Below are positions 3,163 through 42,051 of a DNA stretch of 64,000 nt, piece after piece. Source of the DNA: Nonomuraea dietziae (GTDB lineage Bacteria > Actinomycetota > Actinomycetes > Streptosporangiales > Streptosporangiaceae); assembly GCF_014195505.1 (NCBI RefSeq), contig NZ_JACIBV010000001.1, positions 7,936,001-8,000,000 of the forward strand, in the 5' to 3' direction. How positions within the stretch are numbered: the stretch's first letter is position 1; each line of letters opens with the position of its first letter. Under the pieces are notes generated by a model. That model did no database searches and was not told where the DNA came from. It saw nothing but the letters and a program-made list of their open reading frames with translations. The translations under genes were made by a program, and so were the position numbers.

Positions 3163-7428
<4,266 letters not shown>

Positions 7429-34346: not shown

Positions 34347-35249
34347 TCAGCCGTTGGTCAGCCAGCGGATCGGGTTCACCCGGGTGATCGCCTGGATCGT
34401 CTCCTCCTCCACGCCGCCCTCGCGCAGCAGGGGGAGCAGCGTGCGGAAGACGTGGGAGTAGCCCGCGCCGCCGTACCTCTGGAGCTGGGCGACGCGGGAG
34501 ACACCACTGCCGAGCAGCAGGCGCTCGCGGTGCCCCTCGGAGATCAGCTCCATCGCCACCCTGGCCGCCTGCGGGGCGCCGAGGCCCACGGAGGAGAGGC
34601 TGACGTACGCCCCGGCCTCGGCGATCTTGCGGGCGACGGCGACGTCGTCGCCGGTGAAGGAGACGCTGACCCGCGAGCCGGGCAGACCCTCGCCCAGCAG
34701 GATCTCCAGCAGCGCGGGCCCGTTCTGTCCGTGGGTGGCGACGGGCAGGCGGCTGGACAGGGAGGCGCGGGCGGCGGCGACCAGGCAGCGCTCCTCCACC
34801 GGCGACGGCTCCTGGCCCCAGGCGCCGACCTCGCCGATGACGCCTGGCAGCACGCCCGTGCCGTCCAGGCCCGAGGTGATCTCGTCCATCAGCCGCGCGG
34901 TGAGGGTGTCGACGTCGTCCTCGCGGACCTGGGTGAACGGCTCGGCGAACAGCCCTGTCGAGGCGATGACGGGCACCCTGCTGCCCGCGGCGACGCGGGC
35001 GAGGGAGGTGGCGTCCCTGCCCATGCCGATGCAGGACAGCTCGACGGTGAGACCGAGATCGTCGGACTGGCGCAGCTCGCGGAGCTCGTGGGTGACGGTG
35101 CGCTCCTCGTCGAGCCAGCGGTATGGGTCGGAGTCGATACCGACCGCCCAGCGCAGGTCGCAGCGCAGGTGCTCATGGGGGAGGACGGCGCCGGTGATCG
35201 CGTCGGCGCGGATCTGACCGGTGACGGTCCGTAGAAGGGCCTCAGGCAT
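34347..35249 (-). CDS. Phosphotriesterase-like protein lacking two metal ligands
   Basis: The start is placed at ATG 35249 (300 residues; ATG 35258 is possible). The fold is clear from VLPHEHLRCDL (His-x-His pair), GVIGEVGAWGQEPS (bridging Glu) and PVATHGQNGPA (third His). The family fourth His, in a motif such as IGHxGD, is replaced by VSVSFTGDD. The C-terminal Asp, in a motif such as LSHD, is replaced by LLLGSGVSR. A full binuclear metal site is therefore unlikely. It may be a non-catalytic relative or use one metal. The divergent GH74 gene starts about 200 bp away; the ROK gene is downstream on the same strand. Confidence 0.8.
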   Translation of the reverse strand: MPEALLRTVTGQIRADAITGAVLPHEHLRCDLRWAVGIDSDPYRWLDEERTVTHELRELRQSDDLGLTVELSCIGMGRDATSLARVAAGSRVPVIASTGLFAEPFTQVREDDVDTLTARLMDEITSGLDGTGVLPGVIGEVGAWGQEPSPVEERCLVAAARASLSSRLPVATHGQNGPALLEILLGEGLPGSRVSVSFTGDDVAVARKIAEAGAYVSLSSVGLGAPQAARVAMELISEGHRERLLLGSGVSRVAQLQRYGGAGYSHVFRTLLPLLREGGVEEETIQAITRVNPIRWLTNG

Positions 35250-35317
35250 GGACGACATTAACCCGTATTTGCCGGTGAACGCCTTATGTCTGCCGAAAGC
35301 TTTACCTGATGAATGTT

Positions 35318-35327
35318 TCAGCGCTGA
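35318..35327. promoter_or_regulatory. LacI-like palindrome between phosphotriesterase-like and GH74 genes
   Basis: TCAGCGCTGA is a perfect 10-bp palindrome with the AGCGCT core common in LacI-type operators; AAAGCTTT lies 20 bp upstream. The 202-bp divergent gap otherwise shows no clear promoter. Function is a guess from pattern and from the carbohydrate context. Confidence 0.3.
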
Positions 35328-35451
35328 CCTGCGAAGAGTCCGGCCGCGTTTGACCGCCGGATGGCGGGCGGGTGACTCTCCACGCGACATGCGCGCCGCG
35401 GTCGACGGTCAGGGTCTCCGGGCGACTCCTGGACGAAGGGACAGGCCGTAC

Positions 35452-38070
35452 ATGATTCGGTGGATACTCGCAGCGCTGTTGACGATCTCGGCGGCCGCGG
35501 TGGTCGTCTCCGCGCCCGCGCTGCGGGAGGCCGCGGCGCTCGCCGCGCCGGCGCAGGAGACCTACGAGTGGAAGAACGTGCGGATCGACGGAGGCGGCTT
35601 CGTCCCCGCGATCGTCTTCAACCAGAGCGAGAAGAACCTGATCTACGCCAGGACCGACATCGGCGGCGCCTACCGATGGGAGCAGGCCACCAAGACGTGG
35701 ACCCCGCTGCTCGACTGGGTCGGCTGGGACAGGTGGGGCTACAACGGCGTGGACAGCCTGGCCACCGACCCGGTGCAGCCCACCAGGGTGTACGCGGCGG
35801 TCGGGATGTACACCAACAGCTGGGACCCGAACAACGGCGCGATCCTGCGCTCGGCCGACAAGGGCGCCACCTGGCAGGTCTCGCCGCTGCCGTTCAAACT
35901 GGGCGGCAACATGCCGGGCAGGGGCATGGGTGAGCGGCTGGCCGTCGATCCCAGGGACAACAGGACCCTCTATCTCGGCGCGCCCAACGGCAACGGCCTG
36001 TGGAAGAGCTCCGACTACGGCGCGACCTGGGCGAAGGTGTCCTCCTTCCCCAACCCTGGCGACTACGCGCCCGACCCGAGCGACCCCAACGGCTACGCCA
36101 GCCACAGGCCGGGCGTGGTCTGGGTGACGATCGACCCGGTGACCAGGGCGATCTACGCGGGCGTCGCCGACAAGGAGAACATCCTCTACCGCTCCGCCGA
36201 CAACGGCGCGACCTGGCAGCGCGTGCCGGGCCAGCCGACCGGCCACCTGCCGCACAAGGGGGTGCTCGACCACGTCAACGGCCTGCTCTACCTGGCCACC
36301 AGCGACACGGCCGGCCCCTACGACGGGGCCAAGGGCGACGTGTGGCGCCTCGACACCCGCACAGGCGAGTGGACCAGGATCAGCCCGATCCCCTCCACCA
36401 ACGAGGACGACTACTTCGGCTACAGCGGCCTGACCATCGACAGGCAGGACCCGCAGACCCTCATGGTCGCCACCCAGATCTCCTGGTGGCCCGACGTGAT
36501 CTTCTTCAGGTCCACCGACGCGGGCGCGACCTGGACGAGGGTGTGGGACTGGGCCTCCTATCCCAACAGATCCTTCCGCTACACGATGGACGTCTCCTCC
36601 GCTCCGTGGCTGACGTTCGGCGGCAACCCGCAGCCGCCCGAGGTCACGCCGAAGCTGGGCTGGATGACCGAGTCGCTGGAGATCGACCCCTTCGACTCCA
36701 ACAGGATGATGTACGGCACCGGCGCCACCATCTACGGCACGGAGGACCTGCTCAAGTGGGACACAGGGGGCCGGTTCACGATCAGGCCGATGGTGAGGGG
36801 GCTGGAGGAGACCGCCGTGCTCGACCTGGTCAGCCCGCCCACGGGAGCCCCGCTCGTCAGCGGTCTCGGTGACATCGGCGGGTTCAGGCACGCCTCGCTC
36901 GACGCGGTGCCGCCGATGATGTTCACCTCGCCAGGATTCACCTCGACCACCAGCCTCGACTACGCCGAGAAGAACCCCGCCGTGATGGCCCGCTCCGGCA
37001 ACGCCGACGGCAGCAACGTGGCCTTCTCCACCGACGGCGGCGCGAACTGGTTCCAGGGCTCGGAGCCTTCGGGCGTGACGGGAGGCGGCACGATCGCGGC
37101 GGCGGCCGACGGCTCGCGCTTCGTGTGGTCGCCGCAGGGCGCCGCGCCGCACTACTCGGTCGGCTTCGGCACCTCGTGGACCGCCTCGGCCGGCCTGCCC
37201 TCCGGCGCGGTCGTCGAGTCGGACCGGGTGAACCCGTCGACGTTCTACGCCGTGGCGGCCGGCACGTTCTACCGCTCCACCGACGGCGGCGCCACCTTCA
37301 CCGAGACCGCCGCACCCGGCGCGGGCACGTTCAAGGCGGTCCCCGGCCGCGAGGGCCACCTCTGGCTGGCAGGCGAGGGCGGTCTGTTCCGCTCCACCGA
37401 CTCCGGAGCCACCTTCACCAAGCTGCCGGGGGTCACCGGCGCGGTCAACATCGGGTACGGCAAGGCCGCCCCTGGCGCTTCCTACCCCGCGCTGTACGCG
37501 GTCGCCACGATCGACGGCGTGACGGGCGTCCACAGATCCGACGACACGGCCGCCACCTGGACCCGCATCAACGACGACAGACACCAGTACGGGAACATGG
37601 GCGAGGCGATCACCGGCGACCCCCGCGTGTACGGGCGGGTCTACCTGGGCACCAACGGCCGCGGCATCCTGTACGCCGAGCGCTCGGGCTCCGACCCGAC
37701 CCCGACGCCCACCCCGTCGCCCACGCCCACCCCGTCGCCCACGCCCACCCCCACGCCCACCCCGGGGACCGGCGGGTGCTCGGCCGCCTACAAGGTGACC
37801 GGCTCGTGGCAGGGCGGATTCCAGGGCGAGGTCACGGTCAAGGCCGACAAGGCGATCAAGGGGTGGACCGTGTCGTGGGCCTTCCCCGCAGGCCAGCGGA
37901 TCACCCAGCTCTGGAACGGCGCGCACACCCAGTCGGGGGCCGACGTGACGGTCGGGAACGTGGCGTGGAACGGCTCGCTGGCCCAGGGCGCGACGGCGAC
38001 GTTCGGCTTCACCGCATCGTGGACAGGGTCGAACGGCGTGCCTTCCCCGATCGGCTGCGCCGCTTCGTGA
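35452..38070 (+). CDS. Secreted GH74 xyloglucanase with CBM2
   Basis: From ATG 35452, at the start of a signal peptide (about 1-33, MIRWILAALLTISAAAVVVS), the product has 872 residues. The GH74 double seven-blade propeller spans about 40-745: NVRIDGGGFVPAIVFNQSEK, LIYARTDIGGAYRWEQATKT, PLLDWVGWDRWGYNGVDSLA, then several RSxDxGATW blade repeats. A Pro-Thr linker (749-771) and a C-terminal CBM2 cellulose-binding domain (about 775-872, beginning GCSAAYKVTGSWQGGF) follow. It cuts xyloglucan outside the cell. GAAGGG lies about 14 nt before the ATG. A hairpin terminator follows. Confidence 0.95.
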   Translation: MIRWILAALLTISAAAVVVSAPALREAAALAAPAQETYEWKNVRIDGGGFVPAIVFNQSEKNLIYARTDIGGAYRWEQATKTWTPLLDWVGWDRWGYNGVDSLATDPVQPTRVYAAVGMYTNSWDPNNGAILRSADKGATWQVSPLPFKLGGNMPGRGMGERLAVDPRDNRTLYLGAPNGNGLWKSSDYGATWAKVSSFPNPGDYAPDPSDPNGYASHRPGVVWVTIDPVTRAIYAGVADKENILYRSADNGATWQRVPGQPTGHLPHKGVLDHVNGLLYLATSDTAGPYDGAKGDVWRLDTRTGEWTRISPIPSTNEDDYFGYSGLTIDRQDPQTLMVATQISWWPDVIFFRSTDAGATWTRVWDWASYPNRSFRYTMDVSSAPWLTFGGNPQPPEVTPKLGWMTESLEIDPFDSNRMMYGTGATIYGTEDLLKWDTGGRFTIRPMVRGLEETAVLDLVSPPTGAPLVSGLGDIGGFRHASLDAVPPMMFTSPGFTSTTSLDYAEKNPAVMARSGNADGSNVAFSTDGGANWFQGSEPSGVTGGGTIAAAADGSRFVWSPQGAAPHYSVGFGTSWTASAGLPSGAVVESDRVNPSTFYAVAAGTFYRSTDGGATFTETAAPGAGTFKAVPGREGHLWLAGEGGLFRSTDSGATFTKLPGVTGAVNIGYGKAAPGASYPALYAVATIDGVTGVHRSDDTAATWTRINDDRHQYGNMGEAITGDPRVYGRVYLGTNGRGILYAERSGSDPTPTPTPSPTPTPSPTPTPTPTPGTGGCSAAYKVTGSWQGGFQGEVTVKADKAIKGWTVSWAFPAGQRITQLWNGAHTQSGADVTVGNVAWNGSLAQGATATFGFTASWTGSNGVPSPIGCAAS
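37696..37764 (+). repeat. Pro-Thr/Pro-Ser linker repeat in GH74
   Basis: Hexamers of the type CCSACS encode PTPTPTPSPTPTPSPTPTPT, the flexible O-glycosylatable linker between the GH74 catalytic part and CBM2. Confidence 0.85.
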
Positions 38071-38259: not shown

Positions 38260-38271
38260 TAGGCTGGATGG
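38260..38271 (+). promoter_or_regulatory. -10 hexamer for a leaderless transcript
   Basis: TAGGCT at 38260-38265 lies exactly 6 nt before the GTG start at 38272. No ribosome binding site is present. No clear -35 is seen. Confidence 0.45.
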
Positions 38272-38712
38272 GTGGCAATCGACTCCGAAACCGGTGACGC
38301 CGACAAGCTGAAGGACGAAGCGGCGCGCCGCTCCGGCATTCACGGCTGGCTCGACGGCATCCGGTCCACTCGGACCGGTGCCCTCACCCTCAAGATCATC
38401 ATTGGTGTGATCGGCACCGTGATGGTCGTGGGCGGCCTGATCATGGTGCCCTTCCCCGGGCCGGGCTGGCTGGTCGTCTTCGCGGGGCTGGCGGTGCTGG
38501 CCACCGAGTTCCACTGGGCGCACAAGGTGCTGGAGTTCGGCAAGAGCGTCCTGCAGGCCTGGACCGAGTGGTACAAGCAGCGCGGCTGGACGGTGCGCAT
38601 CATCGTCCTGCTCGTCACGCTGGCCGCCATGGGCGTGATCATCTGGGCGGCGCTGAAGTTCAGCCTCGGCATCGACCTGTTCGCCGAGGGGCGCAGGCTG
38701 CTCGGCGTCTAG
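38272..38712 (+). CDS. TIGR02611/PGPGW-family membrane protein
   Basis: This 146-aa protein has a charged N-terminus, two early membrane helices (about 45-75 and 105-130) and the family motif FPGPGWLVVFAGLAVLATEF at about 62-81. It matches the actinobacterial TIGR02611 / PGPGW putative transmembrane family. Function is unknown. The start is a GTG with a -10-like TAGGCT 6 nt upstream and no Shine-Dalgarno sequence. Confidence 0.88.
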   Translation: MAIDSETGDADKLKDEAARRSGIHGWLDGIRSTRTGALTLKIIIGVIGTVMVVGGLIMVPFPGPGWLVVFAGLAVLATEFHWAHKVLEFGKSVLQAWTEWYKQRGWTVRIIVLLVTLAAMGVIIWAALKFSLGIDLFAEGRRLLGV

Positions 38713-38761: not shown

Positions 38762-38773
38762 TAGGCTGCCGCC
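38762..38773 (+). promoter_or_regulatory. -10 hexamer for the first propeller paralogue
   Basis: TAGGCT at 38762-38767 lies 6 nt before GTG 38774, the same spacing as at 38260 and 39642. No Shine-Dalgarno sequence lies between. Confidence 0.45.
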
Positions 38774-39640
38774 GTGCTCTCCGTCCTCGTAGCGCTCGCC
38801 CTCATCCCCCTGCCCGGCGCCTCCGTGGTGCTCCACGAGAGACCGGCCGACCCCGTACGGCTGACCGCCTACGGCCTGGGCACCCAGCACGCCTACCTGC
38901 GAGGCCCGGCCGCCTTCGTCAGGCAGCGCGGCGCCTCCGAGGTGGTCGTCTCGCCCGACGGGCGCAGGGCCGCCGCCGTACCCGCCGCCTACCGGGGCGG
39001 CCACGACACGCTCGTCGTCACCGACCGGGCCACGGGCAGGTCCAGGCGCATCCGCACCGTCGCCAGGCCGCTGATGGCCTCCTACGCCTCGTGGTCGCGC
39101 GATGGGAAGAAGGTCCTGCTGACGCTGGAGAAGAAGGTCTCGGGCAAGTGGCGCTCGATCGGCTACGTCACGGTCGACGTCGCCGCGGGCACCTCCCACA
39201 CGACCGTCGTGGCGGGCGCCGACCCCGCCGCCACGTTCTGGTGGACCCCTGACGGCGCGGTGATCGCCCAGCGCGGGGGCGACGCGGTGGTCCACAGGGC
39301 GGGCGCCAAGCCGAAGGTGCTCAAGGGCGTCGGCACGCTCACAGGACCCGATCTGTTCTCGCCCTCGGGCAAGCGCATGACGACCTGGTGCCCCTCCAGG
39401 CTGGCCGAGCACGTCTGCCTGGTGAACCCCGCCACGGGGGCGATCGTCTCCCGCTCGAGGCTCAGGCCCGAGGCGGTGGTCGGCTGGTGGAACGACAGCT
39501 CGCTGATCGCCGTCGTGCCGTACAGGAACAACTACCGGCTCGTGGTCGCAGGCACCTCGGGCTCCGTCGAACGGGTGCTCGCCGAGATCCCCGCCCGCAC
39601 CTGGCGCGCGGAACTCTGGCTGAGCTTCACCCGTAAGTGA
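38774..39640 (+). CDS. Exported beta-propeller-like protein, paralogue 1 of 3
   Basis: This 288-aa product has a short hydrophobic N-terminus (MLSVLVALALIPLPGASVVL) that can act as a signal or anchor. The body shows TolB/WD40-like blades: VVSPDGRRAAAVP, SWSRDGKKVLLTLEKKVSGK, WWTPDGAVIAQ and FSPSGKRMTTWCPS. Two conserved cysteines (WCPS...HVCLVNP) are shared with the next two genes, as is the opening VLHERPADPVRLTAYGLGTQ. It is a paralogue of both neighbours and the most diverged at its N-terminus. Function is unknown. Confidence 0.75.
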   Translation: MLSVLVALALIPLPGASVVLHERPADPVRLTAYGLGTQHAYLRGPAAFVRQRGASEVVVSPDGRRAAAVPAAYRGGHDTLVVTDRATGRSRRIRTVARPLMASYASWSRDGKKVLLTLEKKVSGKWRSIGYVTVDVAAGTSHTTVVAGADPAATFWWTPDGAVIAQRGGDAVVHRAGAKPKVLKGVGTLTGPDLFSPSGKRMTTWCPSRLAEHVCLVNPATGAIVSRSRLRPEAVVGWWNDSSLIAVVPYRNNYRLVVAGTSGSVERVLAEIPARTWRAELWLSFTRK

Positions 39641-39641
39641 G

Positions 39642-39653
39642 TAGGGTGCCTCC
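39642..39653 (+). promoter_or_regulatory. -10 hexamer for the second propeller paralogue
   Basis: TAGGGT at 39642-39647 begins 1 nt after the previous stop codon and lies 6 nt before GTG 39654. This suggests separate leaderless transcription of each paralogue. Confidence 0.45.
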
Positions 39654-40559
39654 GTGAGTCCAAGCACGCTCCTTCTCGCCGCTGCGCTCGTCTTATCCGG
39701 CGCCGACGTCAAACTGCCAGGTCTCGGCGTCACCCTGCACGAGCAGCCCGGCGACCCCAAAAGGGTCAGCGCCTACACGACAGGAAGCTCGTCCTACCTC
39801 AGGGCGGGTGGCTACTTCGCGGGGCAGCGCTCCTACAACGACCTCGCCGTCTCGCCGGGCGGCGCCTTCGTGGCCGCGATCCCGAGGAAGTTCGTCAAGG
39901 GCTACGACAGGGTCGCGATCGTCAACAGGGCCACCGGCAGGGTCACCAAGATCCGCACGGTGAAGGCGCCCATGGTGGCGGGCACGCCGTACTGGTCGCC
40001 CGACGGGCGCAAGGTGGTGCTGACGGTCTCCAGGAGCGACGGGCGAGGCGGCGGCTGGCGCAGCGTCGGCTTCGTCGTCGTGGACGTCGCCGCCAGGCGC
40101 GCCAGGCTGGTCAAGGTCCCGGGCGCCTACCACGACGCGCTCTTCCAGTGGTCGCCCGACGGCAGGCGGGTCGTCTCCGACTACTGGGACGGCGTGCGCT
40201 TCTACCTGACCGACGGGCGGGTGGCCTGGACCCTCTGGCGTACGGGCGGGCTGGTCGGCGGCGAGAGCGCCTTCTCACCCGACGGCAGGCGCATGGCGAC
40301 GTGGTGCCCCAAGAAGCACAAGGCGACGCTGTGCACCTGGAACCCCTACAACGGCAAGCTGGACAAGAAGGTGAAGGTCCCGGCGGTCGCCTCGTACGGC
40401 TGGTGGGACCGCGAGCACCTGATCGCGGTGGGACGCCACGGCAAGGGCTACGCGAGCGTCGTGATCGACCTCGCCGGCAAGCCCGTGCGCCCCCTGGCCA
40501 CCATCAGCCGCACCGCCTGGCGCGACTACGACCTCTACCTGAGCTACACCCGCCGCTGA
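39654..40559 (+). CDS. Exported beta-propeller-like protein, paralogue 2 of 3
   Basis: This 301-aa protein begins with a hydrophobic stretch (SPSTLLLAAALVLSGADV) and GLGVTLHEQPGDPKRVSAYT, nearly the same as paralogue 3. Blade motifs are YWSPDGRKVVLTVSRSDG, FQWSPDGRRVVSDYWDGVRF and ESAFSPDGRRMATWCPKKHK. The Cys pair WCPKK...LCTWNP is conserved. It ends DLYLSYTRR, like paralogue 3 (EVYLSYTDAG) and paralogue 1 (ELWLSFTRK). It lies 13 bp after paralogue 1. It probably binds a ligand at the cell surface; this is inferred from fold only. Confidence 0.78.
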   Translation: MSPSTLLLAAALVLSGADVKLPGLGVTLHEQPGDPKRVSAYTTGSSSYLRAGGYFAGQRSYNDLAVSPGGAFVAAIPRKFVKGYDRVAIVNRATGRVTKIRTVKAPMVAGTPYWSPDGRKVVLTVSRSDGRGGGWRSVGFVVVDVAARRARLVKVPGAYHDALFQWSPDGRRVVSDYWDGVRFYLTDGRVAWTLWRTGGLVGGESAFSPDGRRMATWCPKKHKATLCTWNPYNGKLDKKVKVPAVASYGWWDREHLIAVGRHGKGYASVVIDLAGKPVRPLATISRTAWRDYDLYLSYTRR

Positions 40560-40564
40560 GGCTC

Positions 40565-40578
40565 TATGCTCCGCCTTT
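40565..40578 (+). promoter_or_regulatory. -10 hexamer for the third propeller paralogue
   Basis: TATGCT at 40565-40570 lies 8 nt before GTG 40579, with no Shine-Dalgarno sequence between. Confidence 0.4.
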
Positions 40579-41523
40579 GTGAATCTTCGTCGCGCTGTTG
40601 CCATGTGCGCCGCTTCCTGTGCGCTTCTCCCATTAATCCCAGCCTCTGCCTCCGCTGCCCGTCTCGACGAGAACGAGATCGACACGGGTCTCGGTGTCAC
40701 GCTCCATGAGCGGCCCGGCGATCCGAAGAAGGTCACCGCGATCGTCGGGGCCAAGCCTCATCTGCGCACCGCCGACGACACCTTCGAGGTGGTGCCCGGT
40801 TACTTCGACGTAGCCGTCGCCCCGAAGGGACACCGAGTGGCGGGGCTCCCTGAGAACCCGAAGGGCAGGTACGACTCGGTCGCCATCATCGATGCGGCCG
40901 CCCAGCAGACGACGACGGTGCGCACCTCGAAGCTGCCGTTCAGGACAACGATCGCCTACTGGTCGGCCAGCGGCAGCAAGCTCGCGCTGACCGTCGAGAA
41001 GACGGACGGTAAGAAGTGGCTGCCCGTAGGCTTCGCCACGGCCGACGTGAGGGCCAAGGCAGCCAAGGTGGTGCTGCTGAAGGACCTTTCCAAGGACGCG
41101 GTGTTCCAGTGGACCCCCGACGGCAGGCACCTGATGAGCAGCTACCGGGACGGCGTGCGCTTCTACCGGCCGGACGGCAAGGTGGTCAGAACGCTGCCGG
41201 GCGTCGGCTCGGACATCGGCGGGGAGACGGCGTTCTCACCCTCCGGAAAGTTGCTGGGAACCTTCTGCCCAGCCCGCTATTACGAGAGCTTCTGCACCTG
41301 GGACCTCGCGACGGGCAAGCTGCGCAATCGCGTCGACATCGCAGTCGAGGGATCGTACGGCTGGTGGGACGACAAGCACCTGCTCGCCGCCGTGAAGGGT
41401 GGGAGCGGCTACCAGATGGTCGTCGTCGACCTCAAGGGCAACGTGGTGCGCACCGTGGCTGACATCAGCTCTTCGGCGTGGAAGAAGGACGAGGTCTACC
41501 TGAGCTACACCGACGCCGGTTGA
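40579..41523 (+). CDS. Exported beta-propeller-like protein, paralogue 3 of 3
   Basis: This 314-aa protein has the clearest signal peptide of the three (MNLRRAVAMCAASCALLPLI, cleavage near ASAARL). The rest follows paralogue 2: GLGVTLHERPGDPKKVTAIV, SVAIIDAAAQQTTTVRT, YWSASGSKLALTVEKTDGKK, FQWTPDGRHLMSSYRDGVRF, ETAFSPSGKLLGTFCPARYY and SFCTWDLATGKLRN. The Cys pair is conserved. Codon use looks slightly less GC-rich than its neighbours. A strong hairpin terminator follows, ending the array. Confidence 0.78.
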   Translation: MNLRRAVAMCAASCALLPLIPASASAARLDENEIDTGLGVTLHERPGDPKKVTAIVGAKPHLRTADDTFEVVPGYFDVAVAPKGHRVAGLPENPKGRYDSVAIIDAAAQQTTTVRTSKLPFRTTIAYWSASGSKLALTVEKTDGKKWLPVGFATADVRAKAAKVVLLKDLSKDAVFQWTPDGRHLMSSYRDGVRFYRPDGKVVRTLPGVGSDIGGETAFSPSGKLLGTFCPARYYESFCTWDLATGKLRNRVDIAVEGSYGWWDDKHLLAAVKGGSGYQMVVVDLKGNVVRTVADISSSAWKKDEVYLSYTDAG

Positions 41524-41623: not shown

Positions 41624-41944
41624 CTAGAGGTATAGGCCGGTGCCGTGGTCGGTTTCCTGGGTGGCGACGGCGTGCAGGTCGCGCTCTCTCATCACCAGGT
41701 AGACCTGGGTGTGCAGCTCGACTTCGTACTGGTCCTCGGGGTTGAGGAGCACCTTGTCGCCGACCTTCACCGAGCGTACGTTGGCGCCGACGCCGCAGAC
41801 CTCTCCCCAGGCCAGCCGGTTGGCCATCTTGACGGTCGCGGGGATCACGATGCCTGCGCCGCTGCGCCGCTCCTCGCCGTCCTTCTCCAGCCGGATCATC
41901 ACCCGGTCGTGGAGCATCTGGATCTCGAACTTGGGGTCTGCCAC
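41624..41944 (-). CDS. GroES-like (Cpn10-fold) protein
   Basis: From GTG 41944, 106 residues: KFEIQMLHDRVMIRLEKDGE, then RRSGAGIVIPATVKMANRLA in place of the GroES mobile loop, WGEVCGVGANVRSVKVGDKV and LLNPEDQYEVELHTQVYLVM. This is a single Cpn10 domain with a divergent mobile loop and roof region. It stands alone with no groEL gene beside it. It may be a paralogue that does not pair with GroEL. No HrcA (CIRCE) element is seen upstream. Confidence 0.8.
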   Translation of the reverse strand: MADPKFEIQMLHDRVMIRLEKDGEERRSGAGIVIPATVKMANRLAWGEVCGVGANVRSVKVGDKVLLNPEDQYEVELHTQVYLVMRERDLHAVATQETDHGTGLYL

Positions 41945-42051
41945 GAACGTCAGTGTACGCGGCGCCTGACCGGCCGATTTCCCCAACGGGCGGCCTGGCC
42001 GTGGGCTATAACGTTCCGGTAACCACCGGCGACTTCCCTGAGGCGGCACGC

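Follow-up and report, generated by a model that had tools for sequence, protein, structure and literature searches.

Three consecutive genes in the stretch of the Nonomuraea dietziae genome that we analysed (64,000 nucleotides, referred to as the window) encode free-standing copies of a domain that, as judged from sequence comparison, is the extracellular C-terminal sensor domain of Hanks-type transmembrane Ser/Thr kinases in these actinomycetes. This relationship had been overlooked in an earlier reading of the window made from the sequence alone. The three proteins would be anciently diverged members of an exported, probably six-bladed propeller family. Our best single guess, with a probability of about 0.38, is that they are exported binding modules for the same ligand class as the kinase sensors, and act as co-receptors or decoys.

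Three paralogous genes in a conserved slot

The genes lie on the forward strand at positions 38774-41523, and each starts with GTG. All three encode free-standing propellers. Gene 1 (38774..39640; protein P0001, 288 aa) represents the version that most Nonomuraea spp. have retained. The only close relative of gene 2 (39654..40559; P0002, 301 aa) that was found is the copy in the sister species, genome G006 (90% identity). Gene 3 (40579..41523; P0003, 314 aa) has a signal-peptide-like start and groups, less firmly, with the only copy in N. sediminis. In pairwise BLASTP comparisons, P0002 and P0003 are 46% identical over 278 residues (E 3e-84), P0001 and P0002 are 38% identical over 286 (E 4e-59), and P0001 and P0003 are 35% identical over 276 (E 5e-51), which is far above chance. 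The common opening motif is VVLHERPADPVRL in P0001, VTLHEQPGDPKRV in P0002 and VTLHERPGDPKKV in P0003. A pair of cysteines (C206 and C215 in P0001) is present in all three proteins, and their endings are WLSFT (P0001) and YLSYT (P0002 and P0003). The open reading frames, the BLASTP identities and the motifs thus confirm the three same-strand paralogues with common opening, cysteine pair and ending reported by the sequence-only reading; its claims of duplication and of propeller nature are likewise borne out by the pairwise comparisons and by the TolB-like models described below. The GC content in third codon positions, 0.95, 0.94 and 0.86 in genes 1, 2 and 3, gives no strong sign of foreign origin, perhaps with the exception of gene 3.

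The trio is flanked on the left by the gene of a PGPGW (TIGR02611) membrane protein (38272..38712, forward strand; Pfam/NCBIfam and synteny) and on the right by the gene of a GroES (Cpn10)-like protein (41624..42049, reverse strand; Pfam and synteny), whose true start is probably downstream of the start of the open reading frame. The GroES-like protein adjoins this slot in nearly all loci of the genus, as well as in many other genera, and scores far under the curated GroES cut-offs. Upstream of the trio, positions 35221-38070 encode a probable GH74-type xyloglucanase, a large protein that contains BNR/sortilin-like repeats along with a CBM2 cellulose-binding domain. Several other genera, too, have a homologue close to their PGPGW gene.

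The same domain in receptor kinases

Besides the trio, a profile search of the genome itself (E up to 0.001) retrieved one further sequence, the C-terminal part of a kinase (E 5.2e-48), making four matches in total. This kinase is a 764-aa frame (L096, 6183-8477) that has a kinase domain and, ahead of 'TVYERPGDPIRLTSYE', a hydrophobic stretch plus a Pro/Ser/Thr linker. All 27 sampled long forms match Pkinase and have a hydrophobic stretch ahead of the propeller (mean hydropathy 1.58-2.91). In 26 of them Lys and Arg are in excess on the kinase side of this stretch, and thus the propeller should be outside the cell. The trio proteins have no Pkinase match, which rules them out as Hanks-type receptor kinases in their own right.

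The positions E30, D34, R50, W114, G139, C218, C227 and H255 (P0002 numbering) are conserved in 63-67 of 67 free forms and in 25-27 of 27 kinase forms. In a quick tree of these 94 domains, one branch with support 99 splits the two forms. Within the genus, one or more matches in frames longer than 600 aa were found in each of 36 genomes (including that of the window). In the family, further matches occur in at least 53 of the 56 genomes with a free form (above 200 bits), in a count that ignores kinship and where a further match is not necessarily a kinase. Ten of the genomes were searched again in full. In three of them (G079, G195, G239) nothing but the free form matches at E 1e-6, and hence such kinases cannot be obligatory partners of the free form.

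Strong matches were seen only in the taxonomic family of the window. At least 10 of 296 sampled genomes of the class match at 1e-12, every one from this family, and at least 106 of 297 sampled family genomes, in at least 20 of 68 genera, match at 1e-20; eight candidates per genome were scored in both searches, and thus the counts are lower bounds. Weaker matches occur in 6 of 23 genomes of other families (E 4.9e-4 to 2.1e-6) and in an Acidobacteria contig (L035), which was kept out of all trees.

The same data may be explained in another way. The free propellers could be envelope binding or scaffold proteins with a TolB-like fold and a job of their own apart from kinase signalling, the domain having been borrowed by the kinases or the reverse. 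This explanation comes close behind the kinase-linked one because 3 of the 10 fully searched genomes have the free form and no such kinase. The single clean split of the tree agrees with it. This split counts against the kinase-linked reading, as does the absence of kinases, by Pfam, among the genes neighbouring the trio. The top structural matches, which are TolB propellers, also favour an envelope protein. However, most genomes with a free form have the kinase form as well, the conserved residues are common to both, and no Tol-Pal gene is present among the ten window proteins scanned.

Fold, closest known systems and export

The only Pfam or NCBIfam model above cut-off in the trio is the generic PD40 repeat in P0002 (31.9 bits at a cut-off of 20.9, E 1.2e-7); P0001 and P0003 have no PD40 match. 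In this respect the proteins indeed belong to no recognised named family, as had been noted from the sequence alone. They are not canonical WD40 proteins by Pfam, with 16.2 bits for P0002 at a cut-off of 27 and no match for P0001 and P0003. Membership in TolB proper (TIGR02800) was ruled out, as P0001 and P0002 score 17.5 and 28.2 bits at a cut-off of 343, and P0003 has no match.

The AlphaFold models of P0002 and P0001, each made from four sequences, are all-beta with mean pLDDT 79.6 and 78.1, respectively. The best fold matches of the P0002 model are TolB propellers (Z 17.7, 247 residues, 3.7 A), and so the modelled fold is that of a TolB-like propeller. The likeness to TolB of the Tol-Pal system, which includes the PD40 repeat of P0002, is confined to the propeller part of TolB (chain residues from about 129-164 on), whereas the trio proteins have no room for the TolB N-terminal domain. 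Manual reading of the strands of the P0002 model suggests that there are probably six blades, five full ones and a sixth to which both termini of the chain contribute. The C-terminal strand, with Y/WLSYT, would close the ring jointly with the N-terminal ones, which carry VTLHExPxDPxxV, and this would explain the conservation of both ends. However, the ring-closing strands are modelled at low confidence: in each model pLDDT is below 50 for two stretches among residues 1-42, and near 60 for the C-terminal strand. This counts against the kinase-linked reading.

Many propellers are enzymes. Propeller domains of S9 peptidases stand directly below TolB in the Foldseek list for the P0002 model, and the presumed xyloglucanase gene is situated upstream. 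However, Pfam and NCBIfam detect no enzyme family and no peptidase domain in the trio, and the residues that are most conserved are also present in the kinase sensors. It is thus highly improbable that the free propellers are secreted enzymes, either hydrolases or lyases.

The best PDB sequence match of a four-sequence profile (E 5.4e-7) is PkwA of Thermomonospora curvata, a Ser/Thr kinase with a WD40 propeller (5yzv). It combines a kinase with a propeller, as do the long relatives of the trio, whereas the trio has no kinase, and its fold match to the P0002 model (Z 15.4 over 221 residues) is weaker than that of TolB. The propeller of PknD from Mycobacterium tuberculosis consists of NHL-type repeats. 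This type was ruled out for the trio, which has no NHL match in Pfam at E up to 1. PknD resembles the long forms in having an extracellular six-bladed propeller as the sensor of a Ser/Thr kinase, as stated in a review (PMC3601408), but differs from the trio in being one fused protein. The parts are mostly known, namely the propeller fold and the combination of kinase and propeller sensor as in PkwA and PknD; a description of the free-standing, multiplied form was not found in a search of open-licence papers.

All three proteins had been proposed to be exported. For P0003 this prediction is well supported, since inspection by eye reveals a charged start, a hydrophobic run and the sequence ASASA. 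The N-termini of P0001 and P0002 are hydrophobic and have no charged start, and that of P0001 has no clear cleavage site; export of these two proteins is putative.

Candidate leaderless promoters

Each gene of the trio is preceded by a hexamer resembling the -10 box, found in the sequence and by a scan. TAGGCT (38762..38767) and TAGGGT (39642..39647) end six bases before the GTG of genes 1 and 2, and TATGCT (40565..40570) ends eight bases before that of gene 3, all on the forward strand. The pattern TANNNT ending 6-8 bases ahead of a start codon was observed in 65 of 67 free genes, including the three in the window, as compared to 2 of 1404 GTG or ATG codons in gene bodies; any in-frame GTG or ATG in the zone before the domain was counted as a start. 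The two exceptions are a gene with a short frame (L050) and gene 2 of G006. According to an earlier study (PMC3160421), about a fifth of genes in Actinobacteria are leaderless, with TANNNT some 12 bases ahead of the start codon as their signal; TANNNT promoters are also mentioned in PMC3898074. Given the position of the hexamer, each free gene is probably leaderless, and each gene of the trio is probably read from a predicted promoter of its own. Separate promoters would allow the copies to be expressed apart. The PGPGW gene, too, begins six bases after TAGGCT (38260-38274), and thus is probably leaderless as well.

Copy number and age of the trio

Of 54 Nonomuraea genomes, 39 encode a free form with an E value of at most 1e-58. 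By synteny, the slot between the PGPGW and GroES-like proteins contains three copies in the window, two in G006 and one in 36 genomes. The sequence-only reading had held that occurrence in single copies only would speak against it. Elsewhere in the genus this is nearly what the copy-number check gave (36 of 38 genomes with a copy in the slot), but not in the window and G006. The single copy of G018 is elsewhere in the genome, and in G004 and G065 a second copy, which is diverged, is present outside the slot. In 14 of the 15 genomes of the genus that have no free form the flanks adjoin each other, the slot being empty with no remnant found, whereas the remaining genome is 63% complete and yielded no flank. 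That 14 relatives live with no copy in the slot counts against the kinase-linked reading. The sister species G006 has a remnant of gene 1 (L036, about 6745-6890, reverse strand), in which the first bases and the last part are present and the middle is gone. Another tandem of free propellers, of a different subtype, was observed in a different genus (L105, 3526-5410).

A recent local triplication was rejected. Trees that unite the five tandem genes, three from the window and two from G006, in one clade have AU p 4.2e-7 (38 rows) and 1.4e-6 (31 rows). The 31-row test also rejected clades of gene 1 with gene 2 and of gene 1 with gene 3, each gene taken with its G006 copy, whereas one clade of genes 2 and 3 with the N. 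sediminis copy (p 0.35) and one clade of all slot genes of the genus (p 0.21) are compatible with the data, so that the duplications may be older than the genus or have arisen within it. Thus the proposed gene duplication holds, but according to the trees it is old and not local. Gene 1 branches among the single-copy genes present in most of the genus (support 100/100), gene 2 groups with the G006 copy alone, and gene 3 joins the lone N. sediminis copy with support 96/95 in the 31-row tree and with no resolution in the 38-row tree. In the tree of four joined flank genes (59 loci, nine rows filled under half), the sister lineage of all others consists of the window species and G006, and N. sediminis comes next. 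L034, being on the same contig as L038, was kept out of the trees. The simplest story is that of an ancient tandem array with differing losses, although transfer or conversion between species may also have produced the tree pattern.

Selection for different ligands, as suggested initially, is not borne out by comparison with G006: dN/dS is 0.25 for gene 2 and 0.32 for gene 3, as against 0.09-0.31 for four neighbouring genes, and no positive selection was detected, which counts against the kinase-linked reading. Gene 3 is the most diverged (77% identity, dS 0.47, with dS 0.12-0.28 in the other genes). The mean conservation in the free forms is 0.54 in the BC loop, 0.55 in DA, 0.59 in CD and 0.74 in AB, with the loops assigned by hand. 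The low values for BC and DA are consistent with a variable binding face, and equally with ordinary loop drift.

One possibility is that we observe the birth and death of a dispensable gene, with old tandem copies that drift and get lost, and that were kept here by chance with functions alike. This would fit the 14 empty slots, the deletion of gene 1 and the absence of the -10 hexamer before gene 2 in G006, and the fast divergence of gene 3. However, all three window genes have an intact frame and a -10 hexamer, which together with the dN/dS values of genes 2 and 3 makes this explanation unlikely.

Tandem kinase and pseudokinase-like genes

The survey of kinase forms covered 40 loci, hand-picked from ranked hit lists and thus not random, two of which have no kinase frame. 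Among 58 kinase-type frames, 20 are changed at the catalytic Lys or Asp, a copy being called degenerate if, in the alignment, the Lys, the HRD Asp or the DFG Asp is substituted or falls in a gap. Two or more frames are present in 18 loci; in 17 of these an intact copy is paired with a changed one, and 12 of the pairs are firm. In the 17 tandem loci (L097, L098, L099, L102, L108, L110, L114, L144-L147, L149, L152, L153, L156, L158, L160) the changed, pseudokinase-like gene is upstream of the intact propeller kinase on the same strand. The status of the changed copy derives from Lys to Arg alone in L145, L147, L156 and L160, and the pair in L144 (497 aa) is poorly aligned. Both copies are intact in the tandem locus L103, and L148 has a single, degenerate copy. 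The tandem arrangement makes receptors of two propellers plausible in the relatives. In the genome of the window we found one kinase form, with intact catalytic letters, and no degenerate partner. A literature search on pseudokinases found no paper with such receptors in its title.

Possible role

Under the kinase-linked reading, the free proteins would, once secreted, act at the cell surface and bind, via the variable face formed by the BC and DA loops, ligands of the class recognised by the kinase sensors. They may deliver the ligand to the kinases, compete with them for it or bridge the two, and expression of each gene from its own leaderless promoter would make the copies separately available. 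A more speculative extension, which we consider rather improbable, is a three-form receptor system in this actinomycete family, with the free propellers as its soluble subunits. One sensor domain would be common to an active receptor kinase, a receptor pseudokinase and a secreted propeller. Where only one such kinase and no pseudokinase was found, as in the genome of the window, several free propellers would serve as interchangeable partners that present the ligand.

What bacterial receptor Ser/Thr kinases bind with their globular sensors was listed as an open question in the 2012 review (PMC3601408). A soluble natural relative of a kinase sensor could serve to fish for the ligand. The locus also illustrates that an apparent single-copy orthologue in a fixed slot can represent different ancient paralogues in different species, which is a trap for orthology calls.
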